In this document: piece by piece, positions 6,801 through 30,752 of the stretch | Layout of the letters: each line of letters opens with the position of its first letter | Numbering within the stretch: position 1 is the stretch's first letter | IMG/VR virus record: IMGVR_UViG_3300025110_000026 | Coordinates: 1-47,705 of that record | Length of the DNA: 47,705 bases | From: a virus | Strand: one strand, 5' to 3' | The notes under the pieces: model-generated | Told to the model about the DNA's origin: nothing | The model's database searches: none | The model's input: only the letters and a program-made list of their open reading frames with translations | Program-made: the position numbers and the translations under genes

Positions 6801-8579
6801 CATACTAAACCCAAATAAGCCTCCAGAGAAAACTGCATGATCTACATTTTCTAATACTGGTCTACCAGTTATTAAGTTTTGGGCTATTGAAGTTAAACCT
6901 TCTGTTGAAGACTCCATAAAAGTAGGTACTACAACTCCGTTCCATGAATTTTCTTTTATGTATTTTCTAAATCCAACTTTAGCTACCTCTCTTTTTCCAG
7001 CTTTACTAAATAATGTAGCTCCTTGTTTTAATATTTTAGCTGTTGGTAAACTACCTAATACACCTTCAGCTAATCCAAAACCAGTTCCAATTAAAAACTT
7101 TTCAGTATTACTATATTCAATATCATTAAACTTATATTTATCTTTTTTGGACATCATCTCCTCGTATTCCATGTCTGATATTTGATTACCAGCAGAAGAC
7201 ACACCAATAATACCTACACCAATACTACCCGTAGCCATCATAGTAGCTATTATAGGTGCCTGTGTACTTATTTCTTGCATTAGAAACTCACCAAAGTTAC
7301 CATCTTTAAAAGCATCTTTAAACTGAACATCAGGAGCGTAGTTAAATCTTTCTTTCTCCATATCAATTCTATGCTGTAGTTGTGCGTATTTAGCTGCAAC
7401 ACCTTGTATTGATGAAAACCCTACAACTGCATCTTGAATTCCATATATATAAGAAGCTCCTCCTAATATTATTCCCTTAGTAACATTATAAGCTGAGTTT
7501 GCATTTTTACCTAAAGAATCATAGTCTCTTCTAAGTAAATCAAACTCTAATTCTAAATCAAATTTATCCTCTAAATTATTATTGTAGTTTTCTTTATTTT
7601 CTTCGTAAGCATTATACATACCAGAGATTACATTAGATTCTTTTTTTACAAAATCAAATGCCATAGTATACTTATCAACTACTGATTTAGGTATTTTTTT
7701 ACCATTAAAAATAAATTGTTCTTCACCTTCTTCTCCAGAGCCAAATATAAAATTAGGATCATTTAAGTCTTTTTCAATTTTTTCTTTATACTTAAATTGC
7801 TCAGACTCTTCAAGTAACGTTTTTCTAGCTATAAAAGCATTATAATCATTATTTATTTTTACTTGATTTTCATTAAAGTTATAGTTATCATTTAAAGTTT
7901 TATAATCTAACCTATTCTTACTTAAAAATTCTTTTTGTTTTTTTGGTGTTAATGATTTTATGAATTGATCTGTTTCATAATTTTTTAGTTCTATTATTTC
8001 TTTATCAGCAAGTCTTCTTCTTAATGTAGCTTCAAGCACTTCATTAGATGGTACTTCATTATTTACTTCAGATAATTCTATTTTAAGATTTTTAAGTTCC
8101 TCTTTGTATGGAGTTTCTACTATTTCTTCATCTGGAAGATAAACACCCATGCCTAAATATTGCCCAGTTTTATAAGTTTTTACTTCATCAAAAAGAGATT
8201 GATCACTGTATTTGTCTTCTATTTCTTGTATACTTTTTTTTATTTCTGAATTTTCATTAGCCTTATCTAATTGTTGATATGTAAATTCTTGATCAACAAA
8301 ATCTTTTTTAGGTACATAGACACCCATACCAGCATAACTAGGTAAAGAACTTTCTTGTTTTTTTGTTTTTAACTTTTTTACTTCAGGTTTTTTTTCTTTT
8401 ATATTACTTATTGCCGAGTCAAAATTAGTATCAAACTCTTGATTATCATTTGGTTTTAAAGCTTCTGAGGTTATATTATTTGATTTAATATAATCTTCAA
8501 CACTCAACCCTTCGGATTCAGCATTAGTTTTTATTTGCTCAAAAGAAATTTCAGAACCGTTTAAATAAAATTTATTCAT
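822..8579 (-). CDS. Giant ejection/internal virion protein with zinc-protease motif
   Basis: This 2585-aa protein is the largest in the window and the last of three probable internal virion proteins. Residues 1-330 are charged and contain two GMGVYxP repeats. Hydrophobic Gly/Ala segments lie near residues 366-385, 441-465 and 586-600, suggesting membrane insertion. Residues 914-918 read HEIGH, the zinc-peptidase signature, with E972 in SSEIVANF as a plausible third ligand (gluzincin-like). Residues 1421-1428, ADIGAGKS, match the loose [AG]x4GK[ST] pattern. The C-terminal third (for example SRWVLSFQNTSMQYNR) resembles the large polyvalent/internal proteins of marine phages, and another hydrophobic stretch sits near 2320-2340. 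T7 gp16, the functional analogue, is about half as long and carries a transglycosylase, which I do not see. The ejection role is inferred from size, position and hydrophobic segments. Confidence 0.85.
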   Translation of the reverse strand: MNKFYLNGSEISFEQIKTNAESEGLSVEDYIKSNNITSEALKPNDNQEFDTNFDSAISNIKEKKPEVKKLKTKKQESSLPSYAGMGVYVPKKDFVDQEFTYQQLDKANENSEIKKSIQEIEDKYSDQSLFDEVKTYKTGQYLGMGVYLPDEEIVETPYKEELKNLKIELSEVNNEVPSNEVLEATLRRRLADKEIIELKNYETDQFIKSLTPKKQKEFLSKNRLDYKTLNDNYNFNENQVKINNDYNAFIARKTLLEESEQFKYKEKIEKDLNDPNFIFGSGEEGEEQFIFNGKKIPKSVVDKYTMAFDFVKKESNVISGMYNAYEENKENYNNNLEDKFDLELEFDLLRRDYDSLGKNANSAYNVTKGIILGGASYIYGIQDAVVGFSSIQGVAAKYAQLQHRIDMEKERFNYAPDVQFKDAFKDGNFGEFLMQEISTQAPIIATMMATGSIGVGIIGVSSAGNQISDMEYEEMMSKKDKYKFNDIEYSNTEKFLIGTGFGLAEGVLGSLPTAKILKQGATLFSKAGKREVAKVGFRKYIKENSWNGVVVPTFMESSTEGLTSIAQNLITGRPVLENVDHAVFSGGLFGFSMSAAPVLGAAAASKFADYDSYSTYRKNILEMGKLNAEFKSKHPEVPFFEKVSALKGEKVKERTDFKEDKKVLDLKIKELKEQNDDILYELDGNMRDKLSEESYKLHVNAIDTQEKLRIEAEKIINSDESQKSKNEKLKPLKERFDRYQQAVDLFKNPKDFGNKYHYLQQSDPKQYDEIRKEAEILIREEKGLSPEDQVSDKDLKKKSFDVYIERQVTADIANTKALIIETGLGSVDYLNAKVIEFQTAEEAQAYEDKRRDESQEAENKKAEKEKRQPLKIKLNVIKNSNGYNLQTADPNQKNEVVLIRDQMVNNRRTRTGVHEIGHGIFTELLKIDNNSEQMKELADVIIRWTGETNRAAYDKMFSGLFGNQTADKKSSEIVANFIERVADGTIDLKSKKSRGFTGLFSSLVNKMMIGKRGNKAKIDFQGETDVIQFIGGIAKKLGDGSLSKEDLDAIRGNKEIFTKSKGKVKEGVSESKVTPEMIKRSNDIQDIYDQEGVDGVWTAIDKGLFDGIINKTVNLYYKNRFKQEIVPADKREEMISQLKFSEGGLFDLFRTYNGKSPMAAYVETLLPRRSFDLFKPLFKDKFEPSYSDIDSQFLVESNIDFQTTQEETTKTKEDAEAEAQRIGSLIDPRTLMDDDLSSKATETISNNMPDFGSEKTSFKSLPDLSPETTAERFQIPAKKLIPKNNFTQGELKNTMRNLDEMFDDFVKIFPKGAVVDKAVTQKLYGTSTGLPTNVLTAFYKKGDRIDTASGLPIYDLAPVTKEQFRQELGILPDGTIPDKVFVQSPQAQTAKGLAIMFGKLVTNTTVREQLKPDEGSSQQIADIGAGKSELMLSQAIADQMYGKKYDGFKEGSDSFITLNNPKDIKKAYKEAFATYNFEYEDLILEQMEKSAKAWEKSNSKLTLGKYIYEETLGRTFKRTFQGILGLEKRSLDFRNEKQIKSAREGFQLLINEIGLDSALKYVGPTVKGAYGLRSGGFKLNLETGGFDIAKGSLRYFLIGGRLDFFKNFIPDASYESGSQSATINRVEITLPTVFRQRYEVEFGEQQQDRIRQAEDQREGFRQIVDTLKDLYEKNKISKNDLGMILMTFNSNVDALVRTAAIPNLQIENLNSNNPKDYVYEHVKPARQVIQEILGLYILNKDGNNTTFDQIMEDFRVAIIPKTYDKIISKYFKSHLPKDANNKAIKAKMVDGEYLAARYNDKRVVEEIEKAGLPPLKIVEVKKQETKQDELSKSDADLSGRFNSIIEETKGGKTALAAADKVIPEVIARQQGASIGKYKFFVPPSAEDFMGLMYSFMGKGTQGDLHKQFFEETLNKPYKKGIAQLESAKQKIETDYRELRKKYPKVYKKLSKKIPGTDFTYDQAIRIFLWKSGGFDMTETGLEPETAEGRKLINDAFFAVAKDRDLQQFARGVGLISGQEKGWIDPSRDWIIDNIASDLNNISDKISRKEFLQEFTDNYKEIFNKQNLNKIEAIYGSRFRHSLEDILFRMEKGTNRNFGSEDARANAFADFLNGSVGSIMFFNMRSAALQTLSAANYVNWSDNNIYAAGKAFANIPQYYADVVTLFNSDKLKQRRKGFKMDVNQAELVKSIEGQKNKFKAALRYLLKLGFTPTQAVDSLAIATGGASFYRNRTKTYQEQGLSLKEAEAKAFEDFSEITDQSQQSSDPAMVSEQQANKFSRWVLSFQNTSMQYNRLIKKAALDISNNRGNTKENVSKILYYSFVQNFTFNALSSALFAVALGSSDDDEKDQQKILRTANGMADTILKGAGYHGAIVAMLKNTAFEIHKQESKSWGKDYVYVLLSMLNVAPAVGSKFSKGYKIQKTYEFQKDLIKERGFYPGTLNPKSFGKKQSFGFKGTKNIIDNPAYMMAGYGLSVVNIPLDRVIKKVSNASYALDNTTKGWQKTALMFGFSTWDLDLKNADGLIIKERAQDQRRKEGYKKAAETRKKNSKTKKRSAIEEIEYKNSAEYIEKKREAYRKKILKANN

Positions 8580-11539: not shown

Positions 11540-11875
11540 TTATTTACTACTTTCTGAAACATCTGATCCAACTTGATATAATTCTATTTTATCTGTAGAA
11601 TCATTTTTCATTTCAACTTCAGCAAAATAACCATTTAATGATGATAAATTTGCTTTATTATTTTTGCTAAACAATATGAAATCTGTTCCGCCAGGTCTTG
11701 CTAAGGTAGTAGGTATCTCACAAGTTATCACGGTAGAAGTTAATGCTGTGCATTTTCCTAACTCTACAGGTGCAGCACCTACTCCAGATGTTACTGCACT
11801 TTTATAAATAGTATCACCAATTTGTAGTGACGTATTTATAGGATTGCTAAATGTCATTTGTATTGAATCTGGCAT
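11540..11875 (-). CDS. Small structural protein between nozzle and ejection genes
   Basis: This 111-aa protein is beta-rich and ends with YFAEVEMKNDSTDKIELYQV followed by a short acidic/serine tail. It starts MPDSIQM, with the same MPD opening as the adjacent nozzle gene, and its leader is A-rich (AATAAAAT before ATG). Small proteins with a comparable tail (xxAEVxxxNxSTxKxELF) occur among tail genes of marine phages, so a minor tail or decoration role is likely. This rests on resemblance and context; no enzymatic motif is visible. The spacing to the nozzle gene is only 11 bases, so they are almost certainly co-transcribed. Confidence 0.75.
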   Translation of the reverse strand: MPDSIQMTFSNPINTSLQIGDTIYKSAVTSGVGAAPVELGKCTALTSTVITCEIPTTLARPGGTDFILFSKNNKANLSSLNGYFAEVEMKNDSTDKIELYQVGSDVSESSK

Positions 11876-11886
11876 ATTTTATTTAT

Positions 11887-14800
11887 TTAAGCTATTGAAC
11901 CGCTTTTTGTTACTGTAAATGTAATATCTAAATCGTCTGTTGTATCAATACCTGCTTTTAGAGTTGCTGCCCATGAAAAACCTAATTTAGAAGCGGATGT
12001 TCCTTGATACTTACCATTAGATAAAGATGTCCAAGTATCGGTGTAATCAGGACTAGTAACTTTTAAAGAAGATATTTGTAATGCAGTAATATTACTAGTA
12101 TCATCAGCAACAGCATTTATAACTATTTGATTTTCACCACCTTGAGTTGTGTTAGCACCTTCTTTCAAATTATTACCTATTAATTCAGCTATTATATAAC
12201 CAGTACCGTTATATGTTGCAGCACTTCCACTATTTACAGCAACTCTATTATGACCACTAATTAGTACGGCTTCTGAAACATCACCACTTATTTTAGTTTT
12301 AATTGCTTTTTTAGTTGTTACTGTGGGTGGTGTATAAACCGTAGCTGAACCTTCTATTGTATGGGATAATAATTTATCTAAATCTAACTCTAAAGTAACA
12401 TCTGCTAATCCATACTTAGATATTTCAATATCACCAGTTACTGTATACTTATTACCTGCGTTAGTATTATTAATTGTACCATTAATATTTTTAAGATCAA
12501 AATCCCAGTTTTCTGGTGTTGTTTTATTAAATAAGAAAACTGTACCAGTTGTTATTATACTAGAACCTGTAGCAGCTGTACCAAGCGTTATTACAGTTCT
12601 ATCTGTATTTATAGCAGATACTGTATTTGTATGAGAACTTGCAACAGTACCATCTGAATTATATATGTTATAATCAATACTACTACCAACATAAACTGCA
12701 TCAGGTATTGTAGTGGTTGGAGTACGTGTAAATGTTAAAGCAACATTATCACTTAATGATTCACTTTCTGATAAAGTTAGTGTTGTATGATCTGAAGGAG
12801 TGTCTAGAGCAACCGCTGTAACTGTAGGAGTACCAGATATACCACTTCCTGAAACAACATCACCTATCAATATATCACCAACTTCATTATCAACTACTAA
12901 AGTATCACTATTAATTGCACCATCCACATTAGCCGTAGAAGTTACTGCAGCAGCAAAACTTAAAGTAGTACCACTGTTTATGCTAGCAGTACCAGTGTAT
13001 GTTAAAGTTGCTTTTTCATACTTAAAATCATCAGCACTTATTTCTTTAATTTCACTTAATATGAAGCTTTCATCATTAGCAGATGCATCAACAGCTTGCA
13101 TTATACTACTTATATTAGCTATATATTTACTTGATCCACTAACAGGCTCATGTTCTGCATAAGAACTAATTATATCATAAGTAGCAGAAGTAGTTACAGC
13201 TGAAAAAGTTAAATCAACATTGTCCGATATACTTTGTGCAGAAGATAAAACCAAAGTATTTTGATCAGTAACTGTTTTAATGGTAACATTGTTATCAACA
13301 CCACTACCAGTAACCCTATCTCCAACAGCAATTGTTCCAGAATTGTTATCTACTACTAAAGCTGTAGTGCTACTTATTGTACCATTAACCTTAGCTGTAG
13401 CAGTTCCTGTTCTTGAACTTGTAGTTGCTACACTACTACCTGGAAAAGCATATACTTGATCAGGTATAGATTTTTTTAATTTTAATTTAATTTTAGCATC
13501 TGGTAATTGCTTTAAAACAATATCTCCATATGTATTAGCATTAACCTTAGAAAAAGTTATTACTGTACCTGATGCCAATTGACTTATTGAAGATGGTTGT
13601 ATTCTAGGAGCTGAAATAGATGTACCTAAAGTATCAGAAGTTTGACCTGGTACAACAAATCTATATGTATTAAATCCAGCTGAAGAACCTGTGTTAACAT
13701 TAAAAATTTGTTCTTTTAGATTTATCTCTGTTCCACTGTTAGCTGTTGATGAAACTATAAATCTTCTACCTCCAGGCATTCCATTCCAAGTAACATCTGT
13801 ACTCCAATCACCATCACTTAATACTGGAGGAGCGCTAGCAAATGTCAATTTAAATCCACTAGCCCAAGTTGCTGATTGAGTGGATAATGGTAAAAAATTA
13901 GCTTTAGTGGATGTGTGATCAGCAATATTTGCGCCTGGAAACTCATCACCAGCAATAGTGCCGTCGGCATTAAACTTTGTTCTTTTTATTATAGTAAGTG
14001 GTTGGTTACTAAGGACTTGACCTCCATTACCTGAATCATCATATTGATTTATACCTGGATCTATTCTATAATAAATATATTTCTCATTAGAGTTTGTTAA
14101 TGCTGGAATTACCTCATCAAACTCATATACACCACTTGCTGGAATAGCATGATGGCCAATGTATGGATAGTCTTGCCAAGCATAATCTGCAGCCTTACCT
14201 GTCGCTATTGTACCATGCCACCACGATATATTATTACCTACGCTATTAGATGATGTACCATAATCTGTTACAACAGTATAGCTTGCAGCATCCACTGTTT
14301 TTGTTTGTTCTAATTCTCTTCTTGTTATATTAAACTTAGCACCAGGTGTTCCAAATATTTTAAAACTTCTAGTTTCTCCAGTTGCTAGCACAGTTCTTTT
14401 TGATACCTCTGCACCAGTTATAGACGTTGGTACTGCCGTTACTTCTTTAATTGCTTTAGCAACAAATGTTATTTTATCACCAGTAGGATTTTTAGATCCA
14501 AAAGTATATCTAACAGTAAAAGTAACCTTAGCATCTTTATCTGATGAACTCCAATTGTTAGTTATCCTGTACATGTTTTTACCACCACCACCGTTGCTAT
14601 ACACAACCGTAGCCACAGGAGCTTCATCAAATTCAAAACCTGAGTCTGGAGTAAATGCTATAGTAAATACTGTAGATTCAACGTCAACAACACCTCCCGT
14701 ATAAGTATTTGTACCAATTATGTTTGAACCAGTAACAATACTACCCTCTGTTGTTGCAAGTGTATTTTCTTCAAAAGTTTCATGAGTTATACCTACACTA

Positions 14801-17800
14801 TACGTAGTAGTTGTTAATGCTCCAGAATGAGATATATTAACAGTATGGCTTATATCATCAGTAAGAGAACTATCTGTAGATGCTAAAGAGCATGTTACAT
14901 TTGCTCCGCTTTGAGAAAAATTACAATTAGAACCACTAAAATTACCAGCAACTAAGGTATAACCCGTAAGCGGTGTTATTGTAAATACACTAGTATTAGA
15001 TACGTCAGATGTATTTATGTTTTGTACAAAAGATACAGGATCAGATATTGTAATTTTACCAGAAACATTAGCTCCAGTTGCTGTTAAAGTTTTAGTTATA
15101 GTTATTTGTGTTCTTGCTGTATCTCCAGCTATTGAAGCATAAGTTCCAACACCTTGTACTGTAAACTCTTTTTCATCAATATTACTTAATGTTGTAGTAT
15201 CTCCAAGTATGTTATTACTCCATAATCCTTCTTTTTCCACAAACTCCTTAACATTACCCGTTTGTTTTTCTGTTAATACAGAGTTAGCATACCAACCTTT
15301 TTTGGCTAATGTTTGACTAGCACCATTATATGTATATTTTCTAGAATCACTTCCTTCATAATTTATAGTTTTAAAACTTTTAACAGAAGATGGTGCATCA
15401 TTCATTATAACATTAACAGAAGATTCATAACCTGTACTATAAAATTTATTTCTTATAGGATTATTATGAGAATATAATAAACCTTGATTAAATGTATAAT
15501 ACAAACCATTTAATGAAGTTCCAAATTGTGGTATAAAAGACCTAAACGAAGTCCAACCATCAACTCTTTCATCAAATGATATAGTATAATTGTTTAATGT
15601 TAAATTATAGCACTTTTTGTTTTCATCAAACGTACCTATAAAACCGTTAGACAGTGGTATATTATCATTAAACCAATCACCCATACCCTTTTCAGATATA
15701 TTAGTTATACCGTCTCTAGATAGTCTTAAAACACACGATCTGGCTTTGTCTAAAAAATACATTCTAAAACCATAATGACAAATAGATTCAGGAAACTTAC
15801 CACAACCGTAAGTACCTAAATAAGGTATTGTTTGACCTAAAACATTATTACTAGCAGTTAACTGAGGATTACCATCAGCATTGAATAAAGCATCTTTATT
15901 TGCTAGTATTCTTAATACTCTATCTTCACAAAACGTAACTAAATCTGTGTCTCTAGCAACTATTCTCTGTATACTACCATACTCTGGGTTTAACTCTTTA
16001 GTTATATTTTCAGCTTGTATAAATTGATTTAAATCATTAACACCACTTATGGAGTTTATTATACCAGAAAATATTAAACCACTTTTCTTATTATCTTCTT
16101 TATAACGAGTATCTATTGTTGATGAAACAATTGGGCCTTTGTCTATAAAAACAGCATTAAAGTCATCTTGTATCCTATTTGATTCTACGCCATTACCAAA
16201 AGAAAAGCAGTTGAACCAATCAATAGAATTTTCAAAGCCATGTATTTTATTATCTTGACTTAATGTTATACTTGTTGTAGTGTTTGTACCAGTAGCTGTT
16301 ATATCTTTATAATACAATTCATCACTAGACCATATTCTATATGTATATCCAGCATTGACAGTACTATTTATAGTGCCTGACCAAGATATAGAAGTTTTCT
16401 TATCACCATTAGTATCAACAGAATTATCAATACCTGTTATTACTTGTTTAGTTGTATGCTCTGTATTTTGTATTTTCATACCAGGCTTTAGTATAAATAA
16501 CTGATCTGAAGCCTCATAAAATAAATCTAAATCAACAGAAGTTATAGGTTCTGTTTCAAATACAGCTGGATTAGTAGATGTTAAGTTATCATTTTCAAAA
16601 TCTATTTCTCTTTTTACTATAGCTATCTCTGTTATTATACCAGTAGTACCACTACCTGATACAGTGAAATTATCAAAATAACCTCCTCCATCTTTTATAC
16701 TTTCAAATTCAACATTATATCTTCTTCTTTTACCTGATAATTTCTTTTTCTTGCTTGTAGTATCAGATCTATATGATGTAGTAATAGCACAACTTGTAAT
16801 CTTATATACACCACCAGCAAATCCACTAGAATTTGAAAACTGTATTAGAGTACCTGCTGTATTTATTTTTGATAAAAAATCACTTATTTCATTACTTAAA
16901 TTATGATCTACAGTGTTTTCTCCAGTGTCAACCCCTGATAAAATAAAAGAAAATGTTTTGTTATCTGATTTAGGATGTTCATTATCTAATATCCTAAGAT
17001 CTGAGAATTCGTTATTATCAGCTTTTGAATCTTTCCAAGATATTCCAGAGTTTTCACTATTATCCTCTGTAAAATCATTTGTTGAATCTAAAGATATATT
17101 TTGTCTTTCTTTTACACTATACTTTATTTTATTCAATTTAAATGCATCAATAACATTTTCATCTAAAATAGTGTCTCTATTTACTTTAACAAAAAATCTT
17201 CCAGAAAATTCAGATTTATAAGAGCTTGTTTCTTGATATATATTTATTTTAAAATATTCGTTTGCTTCAAAATTAGTTGAAGCTAGTATGGTGGATTCTT
17301 TTGATTCAAAACCATCTTCAAGATTCACTTCATAAACAGTAGTAACTCCCATAGTGCCAGCACTACCATTTGTTTCTCCATTTATACCACCACTTTCTAT
17401 TTTGTATTTGTCTGTAGTACCTATTTCATTTCCAGAAGAGTCATACGATGTTATACTAACATAACCCAAAGAATTAAAGGATCTAGCAAACTCCGGATTT
17501 TCAGCATCAGTAGGTCCTCTAAATTTAAAATAAGAAGAGTTTACTGTTGGTTTATTGCTAGCATCTGACAATATAATAGCTCTATAGCTTGATTTTAAAT
17601 TAATATCAACCGTTAGTGACCTAGGTGCCTCGTTTTGTATATCTAATATTCTATATTTTGCTTCTTCTTTAACAAAATCGTCAGAATCATGTTTCTTTTT
17701 TAATGTTATATATCTTTCCTCTTGTATTTTATTTCTTTCAGATGATGGGAATGATAACCACACACTATCATCTTTAGCTATATAAAATCTATCTAGAGCA

Positions 17801-19482
17801 AGATTATAGTATTCATTTGAAGTTTCTTTTATAAAATATTTATAGTGAGTTGCCCAGTCCGGAGGTATACTATCAATTCTTGCTGATAAATAATTAATAG
17901 AATCAGCTTGAATTTTATTTATAATAGCAGATGATTTTTTACTAGAGAAGACTGGTGTTTCTCTTTGAAAATAATCAGAGTAAACAACACCAACTTGGTA
18001 TGTTCTTTCTGATTTTATAGATTTTTCACCAACACCTATAGAAGAAGTCCTATTAGTTATACTAGATGTTACTGATATTTCAGGTATGTTATTATCTTCT
18101 ATGTCATATCCTTGAGTATAATTAGCATAAACTAATCTATTACCAATTGTTTCTTGAGCTTTAGCTTTTAAAGGAACATTATCCCAAGGTCTTAATAATT
18201 GATTTGAAGGTATTACTAAACCCAATGTTTCAGATTCAACAGTATAACTAGTTGACTCATCAGTTATAGTATGTGTTACATAAACTAAATTATTATTAGA
18301 CTCTTTAAGTAATACTTCAATTTTTTCTACATCAAGAGGTTTTTCAAAACCACTAACAACTATTGATTTAACAGTATTTAACATACCGTCATTATACCCA
18401 TCATCAGATTTGTACGTAAATGTTCCAGGTAAAAATGCAATATCAGAAAAAGGTGAAAACGTAGAGTATTCACCATCATTGTATTTCCATCTATATGCAA
18501 ACCTTATTAACTTTTTTTCAAATAAAGCTTTACCCTCATCCAACAAACAAGTAAATAATAACGAGTTATCTGGTAAATTACTAGGCTTTGTTAATAGTAT
18601 AGCTCTTACACTATTAGCTTCATTTAATAATTCTGTTATTTTTATTGTTAGCTTGTATGTTGTTGTTGATTTATCTGAATTATCTTGAGTGGTAGTTAAT
18701 GTTATTACATCATCTTTTAAGAAGTTAGGAGTAGGTGCAAAGCCTATAGTAAAAGCTCCTCCAATACTTATATCAGAAAAATCATAAGAAACAAAAACGC
18801 TATTGTTATCAGCACTAGTTCCTATTCCAGATCTTTTAGAAGAACTTAATGTTAATGTAGGTGCATTTCTAGGAGCTAACTTTATAGTTGTTACGTGCTC
18901 ATTTTTAAAATTATTAGCAGCTGCTCTTTGAGTGGCATTCATTACCGTGCCATCATATTTTGTAGTAGTTGCAAAATCTACAGAACCTGACTTAAATTTT
19001 TCTATATTTATTTTTTTAGGATCAGTTTGATTGTCTGTCCAAGCTAACAACCCTTCTATAACATTAATACCTGTGACTAAATAGTCTTTACTAAAATTTA
19101 GTATACTTCCAGTATCCACTAACACTGGTAACACTTCTTTAGTTACATCATCATATTCAGCAATACAACTAGCTTCATCAGAAGCTACTAACCAATATAT
19201 TTTATTGTTTTCATTGTCTACAACATGACCTATACATTCAGCATTAGTTAAGTTAGATATAAAACTAGAGCTCCAATTAGAAACTGTATTTGTAACAGCA
19301 TCTAATTTTTTACCATTAATTAAAGTATTACCTAAGCTGTTTTGAATAGAACCTATGTCAGAGCCTTCAGAAGTAACTATTTCTATGTTTTGTGCATCTC
19401 TGTACTCACCATTAGGTATTAATCTCTCATCAAGATCCTTATTCATCCGACCAGCTCGGAAATGATGTTTTATGTCTGGCAT
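11887..19482 (-). CDS. Giant tail nozzle (muzzle/stabilisation) protein with C-terminal extension
   Basis: This 2531-aa protein opens with HHFRAGRMNKDLDERLIPNG, then EYRDAQNIEI and GSDIGSIQNSLGN. I associate this pattern with nozzle/stabilisation proteins of T7-like and crAss-like podoviruses, where early residues form the hub below the portal rings. The part up to about residue 1435 looks like the canonical beta-propeller/nozzle core, ending around FVEKEGLWSNNILGD and FTVQGVG. The remaining roughly 1100 residues are Ser/Thr/Asn-rich, Ig-like beta modules and include two copies of a roughly 65-aa module also present in a ring protein. Family members I know of are about 800-1500 aa, so the extension is unusual. 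A surface adhesion role is inferred. The start at 19482 is just after the stop of the 388-aa ring protein. Confidence 0.85.
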   Translation of the reverse strand: MPDIKHHFRAGRMNKDLDERLIPNGEYRDAQNIEIVTSEGSDIGSIQNSLGNTLINGKKLDAVTNTVSNWSSSFISNLTNAECIGHVVDNENNKIYWLVASDEASCIAEYDDVTKEVLPVLVDTGSILNFSKDYLVTGINVIEGLLAWTDNQTDPKKINIEKFKSGSVDFATTTKYDGTVMNATQRAAANNFKNEHVTTIKLAPRNAPTLTLSSSKRSGIGTSADNNSVFVSYDFSDISIGGAFTIGFAPTPNFLKDDVITLTTTQDNSDKSTTTYKLTIKITELLNEANSVRAILLTKPSNLPDNSLLFTCLLDEGKALFEKKLIRFAYRWKYNDGEYSTFSPFSDIAFLPGTFTYKSDDGYNDGMLNTVKSIVVSGFEKPLDVEKIEVLLKESNNNLVYVTHTITDESTSYTVESETLGLVIPSNQLLRPWDNVPLKAKAQETIGNRLVYANYTQGYDIEDNNIPEISVTSSITNRTSSIGVGEKSIKSERTYQVGVVYSDYFQRETPVFSSKKSSAIINKIQADSINYLSARIDSIPPDWATHYKYFIKETSNEYYNLALDRFYIAKDDSVWLSFPSSERNKIQEERYITLKKKHDSDDFVKEEAKYRILDIQNEAPRSLTVDINLKSSYRAIILSDASNKPTVNSSYFKFRGPTDAENPEFARSFNSLGYVSITSYDSSGNEIGTTDKYKIESGGINGETNGSAGTMGVTTVYEVNLEDGFESKESTILASTNFEANEYFKINIYQETSSYKSEFSGRFFVKVNRDTILDENVIDAFKLNKIKYSVKERQNISLDSTNDFTEDNSENSGISWKDSKADNNEFSDLRILDNEHPKSDNKTFSFILSGVDTGENTVDHNLSNEISDFLSKINTAGTLIQFSNSSGFAGGVYKITSCAITTSYRSDTTSKKKKLSGKRRRYNVEFESIKDGGGYFDNFTVSGSGTTGIITEIAIVKREIDFENDNLTSTNPAVFETEPITSVDLDLFYEASDQLFILKPGMKIQNTEHTTKQVITGIDNSVDTNGDKKTSISWSGTINSTVNAGYTYRIWSSDELYYKDITATGTNTTTSITLSQDNKIHGFENSIDWFNCFSFGNGVESNRIQDDFNAVFIDKGPIVSSTIDTRYKEDNKKSGLIFSGIINSISGVNDLNQFIQAENITKELNPEYGSIQRIVARDTDLVTFCEDRVLRILANKDALFNADGNPQLTASNNVLGQTIPYLGTYGCGKFPESICHYGFRMYFLDKARSCVLRLSRDGITNISEKGMGDWFNDNIPLSNGFIGTFDENKKCYNLTLNNYTISFDERVDGWTSFRSFIPQFGTSLNGLYYTFNQGLLYSHNNPIRNKFYSTGYESSVNVIMNDAPSSVKSFKTINYEGSDSRKYTYNGASQTLAKKGWYANSVLTEKQTGNVKEFVEKEGLWSNNILGDTTTLSNIDEKEFTVQGVGTYASIAGDTARTQITITKTLTATGANVSGKITISDPVSFVQNINTSDVSNTSVFTITPLTGYTLVAGNFSGSNCNFSQSGANVTCSLASTDSSLTDDISHTVNISHSGALTTTTYSVGITHETFEENTLATTEGSIVTGSNIIGTNTYTGGVVDVESTVFTIAFTPDSGFEFDEAPVATVVYSNGGGGKNMYRITNNWSSSDKDAKVTFTVRYTFGSKNPTGDKITFVAKAIKEVTAVPTSITGAEVSKRTVLATGETRSFKIFGTPGAKFNITRRELEQTKTVDAASYTVVTDYGTSSNSVGNNISWWHGTIATGKAADYAWQDYPYIGHHAIPASGVYEFDEVIPALTNSNEKYIYYRIDPGINQYDDSGNGGQVLSNQPLTIIKRTKFNADGTIAGDEFPGANIADHTSTKANFLPLSTQSATWASGFKLTFASAPPVLSDGDWSTDVTWNGMPGGRRFIVSSTANSGTEINLKEQIFNVNTGSSAGFNTYRFVVPGQTSDTLGTSISAPRIQPSSISQLASGTVITFSKVNANTYGDIVLKQLPDAKIKLKLKKSIPDQVYAFPGSSVATTSSRTGTATAKVNGTISSTTALVVDNNSGTIAVGDRVTGSGVDNNVTIKTVTDQNTLVLSSAQSISDNVDLTFSAVTTSATYDIISSYAEHEPVSGSSKYIANISSIMQAVDASANDESFILSEIKEISADDFKYEKATLTYTGTASINSGTTLSFAAAVTSTANVDGAINSDTLVVDNEVGDILIGDVVSGSGISGTPTVTAVALDTPSDHTTLTLSESESLSDNVALTFTRTPTTTIPDAVYVGSSIDYNIYNSDGTVASSHTNTVSAINTDRTVITLGTAATGSSIITTGTVFLFNKTTPENWDFDLKNINGTINNTNAGNKYTVTGDIEISKYGLADVTLELDLDKLLSHTIEGSATVYTPPTVTTKKAIKTKISGDVSEAVLISGHNRVAVNSGSAATYNGTGYIIAELIGNNLKEGANTTQGGENQIVINAVADDTSNITALQISSLKVTSPDYTDTWTSLSNGKYQGTSASKLGFSWAATLKAGIDTTDDLDITFTVTKSGSIA
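12730..12927 (-). repeat. Shared beta module, copy B (in nozzle protein)
   Basis: This 66-aa module covers nozzle residues 2186-2251, reading VDGAINSDTLVVDNEVGD to SDNVALTF. It resembles copy C in the ring protein more closely than copy A next to it. Confidence 0.85.
13204..13389 (-). repeat. Shared beta module, copy A (in nozzle protein)
   Basis: This 62-aa module covers nozzle residues 2032-2093, reading VNGTISSTTALVVDNNSGT to SDNVDLTF. It shares the VxGSGVxxxVTI core and ISDNVxLTF end with the other two copies but is more diverged. Confidence 0.8.
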
Positions 19483-19485
19483 ATC

Positions 19486-20652
19486 TTAATGTTTAATTTG
19501 CTTAGATTTATTTCTCATTATTTGGGTAAGTTCCTCGGATTTGAGGTTAGATAATCTTAGTTTTGCTTTTCTTTTTTCAGCAAATCTTTCTTTTTTAAAC
19601 CTGTTAATTATGTATTCAGGTACTTTAGTTTTACTAGCTAAAACAGCGTGGGCTATATGTTTATATATGGCTTCTTCAGCAAATTTATGAACGACCATTT
19701 CTGAGTCTTGTGCAAGTCCATCACTAATATATTTAAGTGTTACTAACCTGCTTGATATATTAGAACTAAAATATATAATACCTTTTATCTCATCAATAAA
19801 AAAAGATCCATTATTTTGAGCATACTCTGGAGTTATACCAAATCTTCTTCCAGCAGCTTTTAAATCTAATTCATCTAGATCTTGCTTGGACTCTTTATTT
19901 TGTTCTATGTTTGACGATGTAGAATATTTATCCCAAGTCAAAGAATTGAAAGATGTTTGTAATTTTCCATTAACATCAAATAAATATCTATAATCTGAAT
20001 CCTGCAATATACCCGTGGGATTACTAGTGTTTCTAGTTGGATATATAATTCTTTCAATACCATCCCCATCCGACCAACTCAACTTAACGTAGTTAACATA
20101 GTCTTGAGGTAAAATCATATTTAATGTTGGAGGAATTTCTATTTCTTGAGATTTAATTGATTTTAATGTATCATAACTTAACTCTTGTATACCTCTCTGA
20201 GCATGAAAAGCAACATCTGCTTTTTTTACTCTATCTATTATTTTATCATTACCTACATAAGAAACCATGAAGTTATCTATTATATCACCAATACTTATAT
20301 GTTGATAATTACCATATTCCTCTGTAGATGTACTTTCAATAAATACAATTTTTAAACCAGATTTTGGTGCACCACTAGATTCTTGAAGATCTGAATTTAC
20401 CCCAGAAGTATTATGAAAAACTATATTATAAGAATCATCAGCAGAAGTGTCTGATGGAGCTGTACCATTATAAGTATACGTACTTTTGTTTATAATTTTA
20501 TTATTTATATAAACATTTATATCAGCTTGTTGAGTTGGTCTTGTAGTAAAATATGACGTAGTTATATTAAAACTAGTTGTACTTCCATTTCCAGTAAAAC
20601 TTTGAGACTGATTATAATATGCTTCCTCAGTTCTTGTTCCTAGTAGTCCCAT
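19486..20652 (-). CDS. Head-to-tail connector/ring protein
   Basis: This 388-aa protein has an N-terminal beta domain starting FTGNGSTTSFNITTSY and VYINNKI. A helical/beta core follows (DRVKKADVAFHAQRGIQELS, then IEIPPTLNMILPQDYVNYVK), and then a C-terminal helical tail ending in basic residues (ERFAEKRKAKLRLSNLK). The core pattern, with an early helix followed by an IPPTLxMxLPxDYVxYVxL strand, is typical of tail-tube adaptor proteins located between portal and nozzle (T7 gp11-like, crAss ring proteins). It is three bases downstream of the 315-aa protein and three upstream of the nozzle gene. The first domain resembles one in the 1708-aa fibre, an unusual addition to an adaptor. Confidence 0.8.
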   Translation of the reverse strand: MGLLGTRTEEAYYNQSQSFTGNGSTTSFNITTSYFTTRPTQQADINVYINNKIINKSTYTYNGTAPSDTSADDSYNIVFHNTSGVNSDLQESSGAPKSGLKIVFIESTSTEEYGNYQHISIGDIIDNFMVSYVGNDKIIDRVKKADVAFHAQRGIQELSYDTLKSIKSQEIEIPPTLNMILPQDYVNYVKLSWSDGDGIERIIYPTRNTSNPTGILQDSDYRYLFDVNGKLQTSFNSLTWDKYSTSSNIEQNKESKQDLDELDLKAAGRRFGITPEYAQNNGSFFIDEIKGIIYFSSNISSRLVTLKYISDGLAQDSEMVVHKFAEEAIYKHIAHAVLASKTKVPEYIINRFKKERFAEKRKAKLRLSNLKSEELTQIMRNKSKQIKH

Positions 20653-20655
20653 TTA

Positions 20656-21603
20656 TTATGCTTTTTCTTGTTGAACTTTTTTAATTTCTTCTTGAGAAGA
20701 TACCTGATACAATTGAGGATCTTCAAGTAATATACCAGCTAAAGCCAATATTTTTATCACTAAATTTGTTTCTTCTGATTCGTGTAATTCAAAGTTTGTG
20801 GATGTTGTACTGTTATAAAGAGAAACATCATTAACTACAGTACCAGTCCAACTAACTGCTGCTGGTTTTTTTATATAGTTATATGTTATATCAGATGATA
20901 TAGTGCTTGGATAAATCTCTATTCTATTACCAGAGTTGGTTTTTCTTATAAAAACAGGTCTTTTAGTTGTTGGAACTGCTAAAGGTGAAAGGTTATATTG
21001 TATTAATTCTTTTCTTGTTATTTCTTCAACCTCATAATCTACTCCAGATAAAGTATAATAAACATTACCTAATTGATATATTTCAGGATTATTGAAATCA
21101 AAAGTTAATGCTACATTATCAGATATTGATGATGCACTTGATAAGGTTAATGTTGTATGATTAGAGGGAGTGTTTAAAGCAACTGCATCTATTGTTACCC
21201 CTGAAGACACACCACTTCCAGTGACTGTCATACCTGGTAAAACACTACCGGTTGTAGCATCTAAAACAACAGAAGTTGAACTTGAAATGGATCCATCAAC
21301 GGTACCTGTACCAGTCTCTGAACTATCAAGTCTAACTAAATTATTAGTTATGGATAAAGGAGTTTGACTAAAAACTTCAAATATAGACATCTTTTCTTCA
21401 AGAAAAGCAACTGAATCTGAATATTCTAAGTCGTATTTAGGTAATCTATTGAATTGACCTAAATCATAAAAATATTGATTAAAAATATCAAGTTGAGCTT
21501 GGTTAGCGAAAAGATTAAACTCAAGAGGTGTTACATAACCTCTTTTTTCTTTATTTGATATACTTAAAACTCTTTGATATACAGTATCTACGTTTACAGC
21601 CAT
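20656..21603 (-). CDS. Head-to-tail adaptor/ring protein with inserted beta module
   Basis: This 315-aa protein begins VNVDTVYQRVLSISNKEKRG, then FNLFANQAQLDIFNQYFYDL. This helical start resembles adaptor proteins that bind the portal (gp4/gp11-like position). The N-terminal (1-95) and C-terminal (175-315) parts look like one continuous adaptor. Between them, residues about 102-168 hold a Ser/Thr/Val-rich beta module that is closely repeated twice in the nozzle protein. The module therefore looks inserted. The C-terminus, EEIKKVQQEKA, is charged. The gene is immediately upstream of the second ring protein. An adaptor role is inferred from position and from the LFANQAQ-type N-terminus. Confidence 0.75.
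   Translation of the reverse strand: MAVNVDTVYQRVLSISNKEKRGYVTPLEFNLFANQAQLDIFNQYFYDLGQFNRLPKYDLEYSDSVAFLEEKMSIFEVFSQTPLSITNNLVRLDSSETGTGTVDGSISSSTSVVLDATTGSVLPGMTVTGSGVSSGVTIDAVALNTPSNHTTLTLSSASSISDNVALTFDFNNPEIYQLGNVYYTLSGVDYEVEEITRKELIQYNLSPLAVPTTKRPVFIRKTNSGNRIEIYPSTISSDITYNYIKKPAAVSWTGTVVNDVSLYNSTTSTNFELHESEETNLVIKILALAGILLEDPQLYQVSSQEEIKKVQQEKA
21100..21300 (-). repeat. Shared beta module, copy C (in 315-aa ring protein)
   Basis: A 67-aa module (residues 102-168) opens VDGSISSSTSVVLDATTGS and closes SNHTTLTLSSASSISDNVAL. It matches copies A and B inside the nozzle protein, with the phrases TPS(N/D)HTTLTLS and SDNVALTF nearly identical to copy B. It interrupts what otherwise looks like a plain adaptor. 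Confidence 0.85.
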
Positions 21604-22549: not shown

Positions 22550-23989
22550 TTAACCTTTGATTAACATGAAGTTATTAGCTCCTTGAGTAACTAAACATCT
22601 TTCAGAAAGGTAATGTACTTCCATTACATCTTTTCCAGAAGTTTGTGCCCCAACAGAACCAGTAACCCAAGTCTTCATTTTACGATCATCAGTTTCAGAA
22701 GATCTGTAACGAACATGCAAGAAAGGACGAGTTAAGTTCTTTCCTAATTGCTCATCATAAACAGATGAAACACCAGCAGGAACAATAACTCCTCTGATAG
22801 CATTCGTATTAGAAGTGTTAATAAATCCTCTTGTTCCTTGATCATTTAAGTATTTCCAATCAGACTTATAAAAATCATAAGATCCTCTTCGGAAACCTGA
22901 AAAACCAAGATTCAAAGCCATATCTTCGCTATTGCTAAATACTCCATAAGAACTACCAGTAGCATAAGCACTGTTAATACTTCCTAGCATGTCATCAATT
23001 TTAAGAGCTGTTGATCTATTTAAGAATAACATGTTCTCCTCAATTGCACCATTTTTATCAAATGTAGCTAGAATATTATCAAACTCAGTAAAGTTAGTAG
23101 CAGGAGTTCCAGAATCAAGACCATCTGTTACATGACCACGAGCTGTAATAGCAGCAAATAATCCTTCACTACCAAAGTCCTCAGCAGCACCATTAATAGA
23201 ACCATCAGCAGTTGAAGAACCTGCAACACCTTTTACAGATTCCATCATTGACATTTCCAAGTAATCAGCGAATCTTGCTCGAGTGTCTCCTTCAGCTTTC
23301 AAATACCATAAGTATCCTGATTGTCCTTCTTCTCCAGTAACTTCCACCCAGCCAACAGCTGAAGTATCAGATCCAGAAACTTCGTAATAATCTTTCAAGA
23401 TAATATGCTTGTTAGTTTGAGTTTTGAACTGAGGAGCGTTAGCAGCATCTCTACCATCTTTTCCTTTTCCAAACTCAGAACCATAAACTAATATTGAATA
23501 TGCACCTGCACCTGCACTATCTGAAAAAGCAAAGAATTGAGTTGTATAAGAAAGAATAGTAACAGAAGCACCACTTACAGCTGAAACATAACCGTTAAAC
23601 TGCTTATTTTGACCTGCAGCTGCTACAAGAACTTGATCTCCTACTCTTATTCCATGCTCTGATCCAATGGAGTTACCATCTACATCATTTACAATAGTCC
23701 AAACATTAGCATCCTCAGCAGTTTCATTAGTAGCTGTGTAAGCTAAATGTAATCTACCCTGCTCAGACCAAACTACTTGATCAGACTGTGAAGCTTCTTC
23801 TGCTCCAACTTGAGATAAGAAACCTGAAATTGACCTATTTCCATAAATTTCAGCTTCTTTTTCCATTAAATCAGGTAGGTACTGTTGTGCCCAACCTTTA
23901 GTTGCACTTGCTGTAAAGTCAATATAATTGCTTGACAGCGTTTGTTTAGCCGGTGCCGCATCGGGTCCAGCTGCGCTTGTTATTGCCAT
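22550..23989 (-). CDS. Major capsid protein
   Basis: This 479-aa protein follows the portal and scaffold genes in the standard head-gene order and has the length of HK97-fold capsid proteins of large podoviruses. It starts MAITSAAGPDAAPAKQTLSS, continues WAQQYLPDLMEKEAEIYGNR (a long N-arm-like helix), and ends HYLSERCLVTQGANNFMLIK. Middle segments such as RFADYLEMSMMESVKG and NGAIEENMLFLNR fit the long spine helix and P-domain. The gene has a locally higher G+C content than its neighbours, about 43% in lines I counted, as expected for a highly expressed gene. A strong hairpin follows its stop. The assignment rests on context and general features, as no search was possible. Confidence 0.85.
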   Translation of the reverse strand: MAITSAAGPDAAPAKQTLSSNYIDFTASATKGWAQQYLPDLMEKEAEIYGNRSISGFLSQVGAEEASQSDQVVWSEQGRLHLAYTATNETAEDANVWTIVNDVDGNSIGSEHGIRVGDQVLVAAAGQNKQFNGYVSAVSGASVTILSYTTQFFAFSDSAGAGAYSILVYGSEFGKGKDGRDAANAPQFKTQTNKHIILKDYYEVSGSDTSAVGWVEVTGEEGQSGYLWYLKAEGDTRARFADYLEMSMMESVKGVAGSSTADGSINGAAEDFGSEGLFAAITARGHVTDGLDSGTPATNFTEFDNILATFDKNGAIEENMLFLNRSTALKIDDMLGSINSAYATGSSYGVFSNSEDMALNLGFSGFRRGSYDFYKSDWKYLNDQGTRGFINTSNTNAIRGVIVPAGVSSVYDEQLGKNLTRPFLHVRYRSSETDDRKMKTWVTGSVGAQTSGKDVMEVHYLSERCLVTQGANNFMLIKG

Positions 23990-25285: not shown

Positions 25286-27709
25286 TTACCTAGGTTCAAA
25301 TGAACCTAAGTCAAAACCACCCATTGTATCATTACCTGCAGATTCAAAGTTTTTAGGTGGTTTTTCGTTTTTTCTTTGATCAATCAATTCAGATTGTTGA
25401 CTTGCTTGTATTTTAGTTCTTTGATCTTTACGATCTTCTTTTTCTTTTTCTTTGCCCTTAACGGCTTGAACTTCCATCTGCTTCAATTGCATGTTCATTT
25501 GAAACTCAAGTTGCATTAACTCTTTTTTAGCAGCTACTTCTTGTTGCATTTTTTGTGATTCTAGCTGTGCTTTAAGTTGTTCTAATTGACTATCAACTTG
25601 AACTAAAGCTTGTTGTTTTTGAACTTCTGATTCTGCAGCTGCTTGTTGTTGTTGAGCATTAGCCTGAGCTTGAGCCTGTATATTCTGTTGTGATATTTCT
25701 TGATCTTTCTTTTGTTTTTTCTGTCTTCTTAACTTAAGTAATTGATTTGCTAACTTAATGCTATTTATTTCTCTTAAATCTATAGCATCTTCTAGATCAA
25801 TGGTTTTTTGTTGAACAGCTACTTGAATATTGTTTTCAAGCATTTGTTTTTCCTCTTCATCTGGTTTTAATTCTATAAATATACCAAAATCATGAATATG
25901 TAAATTAGCCATCTCCTCTAGTGTTGCCACATTATGAACACCTATACTTTGTATAAAAGCATCTCTTGTAGGAGAATACTCTATTATATCTGATATTCTC
26001 AAAGATAGACACTCTGCTAACTGTGAAGTTAAATCAACACCACCTTGAAGTATATGTCTTGTTGCAGTGTTTGAGTTTGCAGCAGCTAATTTCTGTACAC
26101 CAACCAACGCTTTAGGATCAGGTGTGCTACCATCTCTTGCTTCGTTTAATCCAGTTACATCTCTTATCATTTGTAAATAATAATTGTATGTCTGAATAAG
26201 TGTTTGCATTTTTTGACCACCACTACCACTAGATATTTCTTGAATAGGTACTTTACCTGGGTTCATATCACCATCAGAAGTGAGTGATCTACCTATAATA
26301 CTACCAGTTTGGAAGAACATGTTAAGAGCTTCTTGCGGATTATAGTTTGTACCATTACCAAGATCAACTTCAGCTATACCATCAGCATCTAAGTACACGC
26401 CATCAGGTATCATTCTAGACATTACTTGCTGCAGTTTCAAATGAGTTAACTGAATCATATCAGCAAATCCAGTTATTCTACTAACTAAAGATTCTACTCT
26501 ACCATTATATATTCTAGGGGCTACGATACTATAATTCATTTTAACTTTAGTGTTATCGCTTTTTGGCCTCATCATATTTTTAGCCATCTCCCACTTTAAT
26601 AATTTTTTAGTACCTACTATTAATGCACCTTCATATAATACCTCTAGTGATCTAGATACTTTTTCAAAATTTTCATCCAATATTTCTACAGGCGGATTAA
26701 AAGTATCATCTTTTATTATGATTTTACTAGCACCAGATGCCGTAGACTTTATTTTATATACTTCATTCATATAAGTTTTATAATTAAAATATAAAACTTC
26801 TATTTGATTAGAATCAGAGTTATTGTTACTCAAATTCGTTCTACTATATCCTCGTTTTTTAGAACTTGGTTGATTTGTTATTTCTTCTAAATCTTCAGTA
26901 GTTAATTCAGGAAATTGTTTTTTTAATTCATTAATAGGTATTGTCTTAACCTCACCAACATAATATATGTCTTCAAAATCTGGTGATTCAGTGTATGAAT
27001 AAACTAAATTAGCTGGATCTACATATTCTATTTTAACACCTTCTGATTTAGAAAATGTATTTTTAACAGCACCTATACCTATAACGGTTAAATCATAATT
27101 GACTCTTTTTCTTATTGAATCATATTTATTTTGATTAAGCAGTACATTAATAGCTTGTTCCTCAGCTAACTCAACATTTTGTTTGTATGATAGTTGCATG
27201 TGAAGTTCTAACTCTTCCTTAGAATCAGGTAGTTCTTCTTTTGGTGTTGCTGAAAGATTTAAGTTAAAGTTTTCTCTAAAAAAATCATCAAAGTTTTTTA
27301 ACCTCATATCAGCTAATACGCCTTCCATATACTCAGTTCTTTTACTAACACCGTAAGGATCTTGAGAATAAGCTTTTATATCAAATGTTCTTTCAGATAT
27401 ACCATTAACAACTATATCAACAAATTTAGGTATAATAGGTACTGGTTTCCAGTCTAAATTAAGATAAGATAAATCACCATTTATAGATAACTCATCTTTG
27501 TATTTTTGTATAGATTGTTCTCCTCTAGCATAGAGTCTAAGTCTATGATAACTTGTTTCGTTGCTTTTGAATCTATTAGCTCCAGATTCAGTATCTAACC
27601 ATTCAGCTTCTATAGCTTGGCCTACTTTTAGACCATACTCCATACTTACTTTTTCTAAATCGCTAACTACTTGACTAGGAAATAAATCCTTACTAATTGA
27701 ATGAGCCAT
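25286..27709 (-). CDS. Portal protein
   Basis: This 807-aa protein directly follows the large terminase. The body carries portal-like segments: YARGEQSIQKYKD near residue 60, WKPVPIIPKFVDIVVNGI near residues 88-105, EYVDPANLVYSYTESPDFED in the middle, and GLNEARDGSTPDPKALVG in the stem/crown region. Residues about 650-770 form a long Gln/Ala-rich coiled coil (QAQANAQQQQAAAESEVQKQ), as expected for a C-terminal barrel extending into the head. The length fits long-barrel portals such as those of P22 and crAss-like phages. The protein forms the dodecameric ring through which DNA is packaged. The start at 27709 follows an A-rich leader four bases after the terminase stop. Confidence 0.9.
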   Translation of the reverse strand: MAHSISKDLFPSQVVSDLEKVSMEYGLKVGQAIEAEWLDTESGANRFKSNETSYHRLRLYARGEQSIQKYKDELSINGDLSYLNLDWKPVPIIPKFVDIVVNGISERTFDIKAYSQDPYGVSKRTEYMEGVLADMRLKNFDDFFRENFNLNLSATPKEELPDSKEELELHMQLSYKQNVELAEEQAINVLLNQNKYDSIRKRVNYDLTVIGIGAVKNTFSKSEGVKIEYVDPANLVYSYTESPDFEDIYYVGEVKTIPINELKKQFPELTTEDLEEITNQPSSKKRGYSRTNLSNNNSDSNQIEVLYFNYKTYMNEVYKIKSTASGASKIIIKDDTFNPPVEILDENFEKVSRSLEVLYEGALIVGTKKLLKWEMAKNMMRPKSDNTKVKMNYSIVAPRIYNGRVESLVSRITGFADMIQLTHLKLQQVMSRMIPDGVYLDADGIAEVDLGNGTNYNPQEALNMFFQTGSIIGRSLTSDGDMNPGKVPIQEISSGSGGQKMQTLIQTYNYYLQMIRDVTGLNEARDGSTPDPKALVGVQKLAAANSNTATRHILQGGVDLTSQLAECLSLRISDIIEYSPTRDAFIQSIGVHNVATLEEMANLHIHDFGIFIELKPDEEEKQMLENNIQVAVQQKTIDLEDAIDLREINSIKLANQLLKLRRQKKQKKDQEISQQNIQAQAQANAQQQQAAAESEVQKQQALVQVDSQLEQLKAQLESQKMQQEVAAKKELMQLEFQMNMQLKQMEVQAVKGKEKEKEDRKDQRTKIQASQQSELIDQRKNEKPPKNFESAGNDTMGGFDLGSFEPR

Positions 27710-29924: not shown

Positions 29925-30202
29925 TATTTAGATCTCTTTTCAGCAAAACCACCAAATGAAACATCTTTAGTTGTATCAACTGGTATTTTGTTTTCTAATA
30001 TATTCTCTTCTTCTTGTATGCGATTAAGTATTTCAAAAGCATCAAATATAGCTAGCTTTTTAGTTGCTGCTGCATTCTTTAATCTATCAGCAGATATATC
30101 ATCATCTGAATCAACTATAGCTTCTTTAGCTACTTTAATTAATTCCTCAACTGCCACTTGCCCAGCTTGGATTATACTCTTCTTCGTTTCCTTGATATTC
30201 AT
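29924..30202 (-). CDS. terS: Probable terminase small subunit
   Basis: This 92-aa protein is almost all helix: VAVEELIKVAKEAIVDSDDD, then RLKNAAATKKLAIFDAFEIL, then a short acidic tail. It sits immediately before the large terminase and shares a TAATG junction with it, the normal place for the small subunit that recognises the packaging site. I see no clear helix-turn-helix, so DNA binding is not proven. Its start at 30202 overlaps the end of the upstream tandem GroES-like gene by 56 bases, and the overlapped segment encodes well-formed helix sequence, so the overlap is likely real. No alternative internal Met exists. Confidence 0.7.
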   Translation of the reverse strand: MNIKETKKSIIQAGQVAVEELIKVAKEAIVDSDDDISADRLKNAAATKKLAIFDAFEILNRIQEEENILENKIPVDTTKDVSFGGFAEKRSK

Positions 30203-30752
30203 ATTTGATTGAAATAAAATTAGTCATAACTCTATATAGTTTTTCACCATCTATTACAAACTCATATTCACTGTTAGGTAAAAAACCCACAAGATCGCCA
30301 TTATTTATACCATAACTAATTAACTCATCATTAGTTAATTTCATTATACCTGTTAGTGGCTTTTCTTTATCAGTATCAAATTTATTGTCTTGGTGTATAG
30401 GCTTTACAAAGCAAAACCCTTTCATAGCAGACCACTTTTTATTTCTTTTGTAAGAAAATATTTGATCTTCTCTAACACAATAAGTGTTTTCGTCTATAAA
30501 GCTTCTACTGTTTTTTTCTTCACCTCTAACATTATGCCATCTTCTAAACACATTATGATGAATTATAACTTCATCACCTATTTGTAATTCAGTATCTATG
30601 GCTAAAGGTAAATGCTTTATAACAGCTTCTCTACTAACGTATTGATGATTAAAAATTTCAGTATTTAATACAAGTTCTTTATCACCAACCTTTTTAGTAT
30701 TATTATATCTAGTATCCTTTGGTTCAATTATAAAGTCATAAATACTTTTCAT
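30147..30752 (-). CDS. Tandem GroES-like protein (two chaperonin-10-like halves)
   Basis: This 201-aa protein reads as two GroES-like units. First half: strand KELVLNTEIF, VIKHLPLA, then LQIGDEVIIHHN and NTYCVREDQIFSYKR. Second half: FCFVKPIHQD, LTGIMKL, then INNGDLVGFLPNSEYEFVID and KLYRVMTNFISIKY. Each half has the GroES order of a base strand, G-x-V-type strand, xxxGDxVxF, a turn, and a final (E)xxxVxxxDIxxI strand. Classical GroES is about 97 aa with one unit. I do not see an obvious mobile loop with the GGIVL-type contact in either half, so it may be a structural or scaffold-type variant that does not cap GroEL. It lies just before the terminase genes, with TAATG coupling upstream. The assignment is my reading and was not searched. 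Confidence 0.7.
   Translation of the reverse strand: MKSIYDFIIEPKDTRYNNTKKVGDKELVLNTEIFNHQYVSREAVIKHLPLAIDTELQIGDEVIIHHNVFRRWHNVRGEEKNSRSFIDENTYCVREDQIFSYKRNKKWSAMKGFCFVKPIHQDNKFDTDKEKPLTGIMKLTNDELISYGINNGDLVGFLPNSEYEFVIDGEKLYRVMTNFISIKYEYQGNEEEYNPSWASGS

Follow-up and report, generated by a model that had tools for sequence, protein, structure and literature searches.

A predicted all-beta module repeated in the tail-barrel ring and muzzle of a crAss-like phage, with a ring copy that may have arrived by recombination between sister phages

The window, by which we mean the whole stretch of DNA that was analysed, is virus record IMGVR_UViG_3300025110_000026, with a length of 47,705 bases. Its structural genes lie on the minus strand. 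Two of them, a ring/adaptor of the tail barrel and a muzzle (or nozzle) protein, carry copies of one module, referred to below as the ring copy, N1, and N2.

27714-29924, minus strand: terminase
25286-27709, minus strand: portal
22550-23989, minus strand: major capsid protein, named by its position and by a match to phrog_13704 (virion structural)
Between the major capsid protein and the ring/adaptor, minus strand: gene of 269 aa
20656-21603, minus strand: ring/adaptor of the tail barrel, 315 aa, with the module at site 1; phrog_14543 (virion structural), E 4.5e-35
About 21082-21321, minus strand: whole ring insert with its linkers, 79 aa
21100-21300, minus strand: ring module copy, aa 102-168, in frame
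Between the ring/adaptor and the muzzle, minus strand: gene of 388 aa
11887-19482, minus strand: muzzle/nozzle, 2531 aa, with two module copies in a C-terminal extension; phrog_14478, E 8.5e-129
15208-15456, minus strand: crAss muzzle C-terminal domain, muzzle aa 1343-1425; PF25729 (crAss_MUZ_C), 37 bits against a cut-off of 27
13204-13389, minus strand: muzzle module copy N1, aa 2032-2093, in frame; orthologous copy in contig L012, 82% nucleotide identity
12730-12927, minus strand: muzzle module copy N2, aa 2186-2251, in frame, with a longer loop as in the ring copy; orthologous copy in L012, 84% nucleotide identity

The locus resembles that of crAss001 in its muzzle family, its gene order, and probably its ring family. 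The PF25729 score above cut-off places the muzzle among crAss-like muzzles. Its best profile match stops near residue 1462, and N1 and N2 sit in the long extension beyond this point, both past the PF25729 domain. The ring gene is the second after the capsid gene and lies upstream of the muzzle, which agrees with the position of a gp34/gp35-type gene in crAss001, where we take gp32 to be the capsid protein. When the ring family profile was compared with crAss001 proteins, the best alignment was a moderate match to gp34 (probability 55, E 1e-4, 172 columns); the match to gp35 was weaker, and gp40 and gp43 gave none. The 388-aa neighbour had no match to gp43 by BLASTP. In crAss001, gp34 forms R4 and R5, two rings located where the barrel meets the muzzle (PMC10172136), so the original placement of the ring module near the neck is uncertain.

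Both carrier proteins are longer than their crAss001 counterparts. The window ring has 315 aa because of the module, compared with 225–238 aa for the rings of crAss001, while the muzzle has 2531 aa, compared with 1371 aa in crAss001. Variation of muzzle length through insertions is already known from work on crAss001 (PMC10172136). A small gene downstream of the muzzle (11540-11875) matches phrog_18548, the same PHROG as muzzle residues 1300–1512, and the two products may have a domain in common.

The three copies had been predicted from the letters of the window, and all were found in frame at the positions listed above. When the ring protein was used as query against the record of the window itself, both nozzle copies were recovered at E values well beyond chance (2e-16 and 5e-12). 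The unit spans 62–67 aa across the three copies. In pairwise alignments, N1 and N2 were 54% identical in amino acids and 59% in nucleotides, N1 and the ring copy 56% and 56%, and N2 and the ring copy, the closest pair, 61% and 62%. The claim that the ring copy is closer to N2 than N1 is to N2 was thus confirmed, by a small margin. The likeness is ordinary against background: in a comparison with 181 other family copies, 20% of pairs from unrelated genomes and unrelated host proteins were at least as close.

Comparison of related rings shows that the insertion is optional, with near relatives that lack it. The site-1 insert is present in ring orthologues L004-L010 and absent from L011-L017, L020-L023, and a Flavobacterium elemo phage, such that homologous adaptors do not all carry it. 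Insert-free orthologues have 236–255 aa, in comparison with 315 aa for the window ring. Overall, the module was found in 16 of 116 ring ORFs (roughly eight distinct sequences once duplicates are considered), a fraction that is not a population frequency, as ring carriers were located partly through the module itself. These results agree with the original description of a discrete module that is inserted in a head-to-tail ring protein and repeated in the nozzle; most related rings lack it. Since insert-bearing rings are a minority, the module is dispensable in the ring, a point that speaks against the adhesive role discussed below.

A second insertion site (site 2) was present in the rings of L037, L046, L184, and L191, at a hairpin ahead of a conserved NYxxKP motif. 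Both ring flanks are intact in the three complete site-2 rings, while L184 ends at the contig end. In a tree of 75 rings built with the inserts removed (a quick method with SH-aLRT support only), site-1 and site-2 carriers fell in two separate places among insert-free rings. This separation implies that rings gained the module at least twice. Module insertions mark ring loops that are tolerant of insertion. In a distant ring relative (L092:683-1690, 336 aa), a beta-type insertion of another kind, unrelated to the module (GGSGYATGDVITIP), lies near site 1, which suggests that the site-1 loop tolerates several domain types.

To gauge the extent of the family, a profile of 44 module copies was searched against the fetched viral contigs, with all counts to be read as floors. 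At least 333 copies were found in at least 205 ORFs, which form at least 26 clusters of otherwise dissimilar host proteins; the copy count includes some duplicate records and some of the clusters are fragments. The largest carrier set comprised at least 111 nozzle-like proteins, four tested members of which matched phrog_5107. Across 77 complete nozzle-like proteins, the module occupied five or more separate positions. Among the matches listed, other carriers included muzzles that hold as many as seven copies and a protein of the fibre type that bears PF23140. The module is common in marine viral contigs, where it has repeatedly entered tail proteins of crAss-like and other phages, and it was inserted into the barrel ring on two or more independent occasions.

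The module is not described by any Pfam family. Among the 44 copies, Big_2, I-set, and FN3 gave no match at curated cut-off, Big_1 gave weak matches to only two, and the BACON model was absent from the Pfam matches. Weak PHROG matches included phrog_460, which is labelled head closure. A tblastn search of a phage collection with single modules returned nothing, probably through low-complexity masking and divergence, and a 12-module profile proved too heterogeneous to scan the contigs with. The sequence motif of the module was not found in the literature searched. The family is uncatalogued and promiscuous. The least probable reading of this spread, an in-frame mobile DNA element as opposed to a selected protein domain, would suit the sharp ends (TATAxVNGA ... 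LTF) that copies have in common across numerous sites and numerous unrelated proteins, and was rejected on the grounds that similarity is confined to the protein level with between-host codon identity at or below expectation (observed/expected 0.90), that the DNA forms no stable hairpin (z-scores -1.3 to +2.1) and shows no unusual folding, and that the unit starts at the first predicted strand and stops at the last one.

AlphaFold modelling of the ring copy with 44 relatives (pLDDT 91.4) gave six strands, and the module is predicted to adopt a compact, small all-beta, barrel-like fold. Foldseek returned no PDB match to this model at E below 0.001. The best PDB matches were T5 pb9, the Chi tail tip, the Mystique tail tube, and the N-terminal region of the F1-ATPase beta subunit (TM roughly 0.44–0.64), with barrels and phage tail barrels listed ahead of Ig folds by probability. 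Predicted viral structural proteins, including proteins from Synechococcus phage S-PM2, gave many matches at probability 1.00 and TM up to 0.7–0.8. We read this as a small barrel-like fold that is widespread in marine phage virions. The model of the whole ring was poor (pLDDT 47), and its weak match to the F1-ATPase barrel probably comes from the module. Sequence searches of the PDB with the ring and module profiles found nothing.

The endosialidase beta-barrel (PF12195), a sugar-binding domain, is likewise a small barrel inserted in a tail protein, in that case of the propeller type. Its resemblance to the module is limited to a weak profile match in four of the 44 copies (best E 0.0015) and an hhalign alignment onto K1F residues 449–493 (probability 6.6), both below usual cut-offs. 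As this resemblance is the only hint of sugar binding, and yet falls below every cut-off, it counts against a role in adhesion.

The module is also present in bacteria. When bacterial and archaeal genomes were scanned, it was located in at least three MAGs of marine Cytophagales, in one of which the copies lie within large proteins on contigs of 400–870 kb, while in another the carrier also bears SprB repeats. The large Cytophagales MAG proteins (L277, L278, L279, and L289-L291) contain one to five copies each and are probably secreted. When translations were read by eye, two bacterial carriers started with a signal-peptide-like segment and one ended in a sequence readable as a T9SS sorting tail. 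Among 194 genomes drawn from the same order, strong matches were confined to a single, already-known carrier genome, so that the module is rare in that order.

The origin of the ring copy was examined at the level of codons, by comparing the fraction of identical codons among residues common to two copies with the expectation from codon usage. Identical codons numbered 17 of 34 for N1 and N2 (expected 16.3), 15 of 37 for N1 and the ring copy (expected 16.4), and 24 of 41 for N2 and the ring copy (expected 18.5; P 0.054, not significant). The descent controls gave 49 of 57 for the window ring and the L009 ring (expected 25.5) and 47 of 55 for N2 of the window and of L012 (expected 26). Across the survey, none of 117 within-genome copy pairs reached P<0.001. 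Synonymous codons are saturated between the window copies. Among the copies listed, the nearest relatives of the window ring copy were ring copies of other phages (77–83% nucleotide identity), and that of N2 was its L012 orthologue, from a phage whose ring has no insert.

The ring gene itself is a mosaic. Informative sites were defined as those at which the carriers L006, L007, and L009 differ from the insert-free L011-L013. One tract, about 600 bp in length, matched the insert-bearing sister phages throughout:

20864-21470, minus strand: ring-gene tract comprising the insert and its flanks; 39 of 39 informative sites carrier-like

At 20624-20863 the window instead matches the insert-free phages, at 12 of 14 informative sites, and the upstream flank of the tract is mixed (4 to 6). 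None of 200 permutations produced a pattern as extreme. The simplest reading of a carrier-like tract with mixed or opposite flanks is that the ring insert arrived by allelic recombination. From these comparisons, the window copies appear to be old relatives, and not the product of recent self-copying. Close relatives thus show a phage accessory domain that was moved by allelic recombination between sister phages, not by copying within a genome.

An old exchange between ring and muzzle, in either direction, is a plausible if less favoured source of the site-1 and site-2 insertions, with later spread through inheritance and the exchange of alleles. Among the copies listed, the window site-1 copy has N2 as its closest non-ring relative (rank 6, 55% amino acid identity in the family alignment), the two have in common the TPxxHTTL loop described below, and the nearest non-ring relatives of site-2 copies, again among those listed, are mostly the muzzle copies of L041 and L184. 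Nevertheless, the 65 residues available have saturated synonymous sites, no ring-muzzle pair stands out after many comparisons, and the copies of unrelated phages in nozzle-like proteins come almost as close.

The original proposal, in which N2 and the ring gene recently exchanged sequence within this genome by transfer or gene conversion, is very unlikely: codon identity between the two is not significantly above expectation, no within-genome pair passed the survey threshold, ring copies group with the ring copies of other phages, and the ring tract was inherited from carrier phages. These results outweigh the rank of N2 as closest non-ring copy by amino acid among the copies listed, a TPxxHTTL loop that is confined to site-1 ring copies and the window N2 among the 182 distinct copies listed, and a best N2-ring block of 48 nt with 83% identity, which was chosen post hoc and is equalled by 1.8% of unrelated pairs.

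Our preferred reading, which we hold to be modestly probable as a whole, combines a promiscuous domain spread by recombination, a ring copy acquired through a sister-phage allele, and an accessory adhesive role on tails. The repeated unit would be a domain of ~70 aa that spreads by recombination into permissive loops of tail proteins. In the phage group of the window, it occupies the muzzle extension and, for some lineages, also the tail-barrel ring. The ring copy would have entered the ancestors of the window phage long ago, and would have come into this genome as part of an allele exchanged with a sister phage that bears the insert, not from its own nozzle. By analogy with crAss001, twelve ring subunits would form a belt of modules around the barrel, while six muzzle subunits would each present two or more modules toward the tip. 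Arrayed in this manner, the modules may bind weakly and multivalently to polysaccharide or protein on the cell surface of a host among the marine Bacteroidota prior to irreversible attachment. Here we infer both the outward display of the module and the host group. For function, the reading we favour, if only slightly on the likely side, is that the module adheres weakly and multivalently to the envelope of the host, since most carriers are nozzle, muzzle, fibre, or secreted surface proteins. The module is a testable candidate adhesion domain, common to phages and bacterial surface proteins.

The main alternative, possible but rather doubtful, is that the module is structural, with no binding role, and would stiffen the barrel and muzzle, help to pack them, or cap loops that are exposed. 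In a related case, the Ig-like domain on the adaptor of R4C was interpreted as a local stabiliser and not as an aid to adsorption (PMC10276861), and the module has many S, T, V, and G residues but no obvious patch of aromatic residues for binding, both of which are consistent with such a role; that closely related rings manage without the module, and that it occurs at unrelated places in unrelated proteins, argue against it. A more sweeping idea, which we consider unlikely, is that the barrel domain is a common currency of marine phage tail machines (ring, muzzle, nozzle, and fibres) and the surface proteins secreted by their Bacteroidota hosts, inserted time and again at exposed loops for adhesion to or mimicry of the host surface layer, including as a 12-fold belt on the barrel.

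In its behaviour, the module resembles other promiscuous phage domains, namely those of the Ig-like and BACON types (PMC6949934, PMC10276861, PMC10684548), while membership in those families was not found. BACON repeats are small beta domains of crAss-like phage tail-associated proteins that spread by transfer and duplication, recur in Bacteroidota surface proteins, and have been proposed to bind cell surfaces (PMC6949934). The module is alike in being a small beta domain in crAss-like tail proteins that also occurs in Bacteroidota surface proteins. However, BACON has an Ig-like beta-sandwich fold and is covered by a Pfam model, whereas the module has no Pfam family and is found in marine phages as single copies in the barrel ring and muzzle. 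Phage Ig-like domains are likewise accessory parts of head-to-tail and tail proteins, which some relatives have and others lack, and they are presumed to have spread through recombination, but differ in that the module has no curated match to the Ig-type families named above. Phages are already known to carry promiscuous beta domains, but the present family has neither a Pfam entry nor a clear match to a solved structure.

Several other genes of the window were also assigned. A GroES-like co-chaperonin (30147-30752; phrog_13932, E 7.5e-24) lies far from a GroEL chaperonin (41561-43123; phrog_5725, E 2.9e-132). The end of the structural block holds a protein of 2585 aa (822-8579) with no PHROG match, possibly a large ejected or cargo protein. 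Three tail-fibre-like proteins of 640, 1708, and 1211 aa (31599-38647 and 43536-47171) have similar C-terminal ends, in which LKENI or LKKNI is followed by GFxAxE, and these ends resemble the intramolecular chaperones of fibres.
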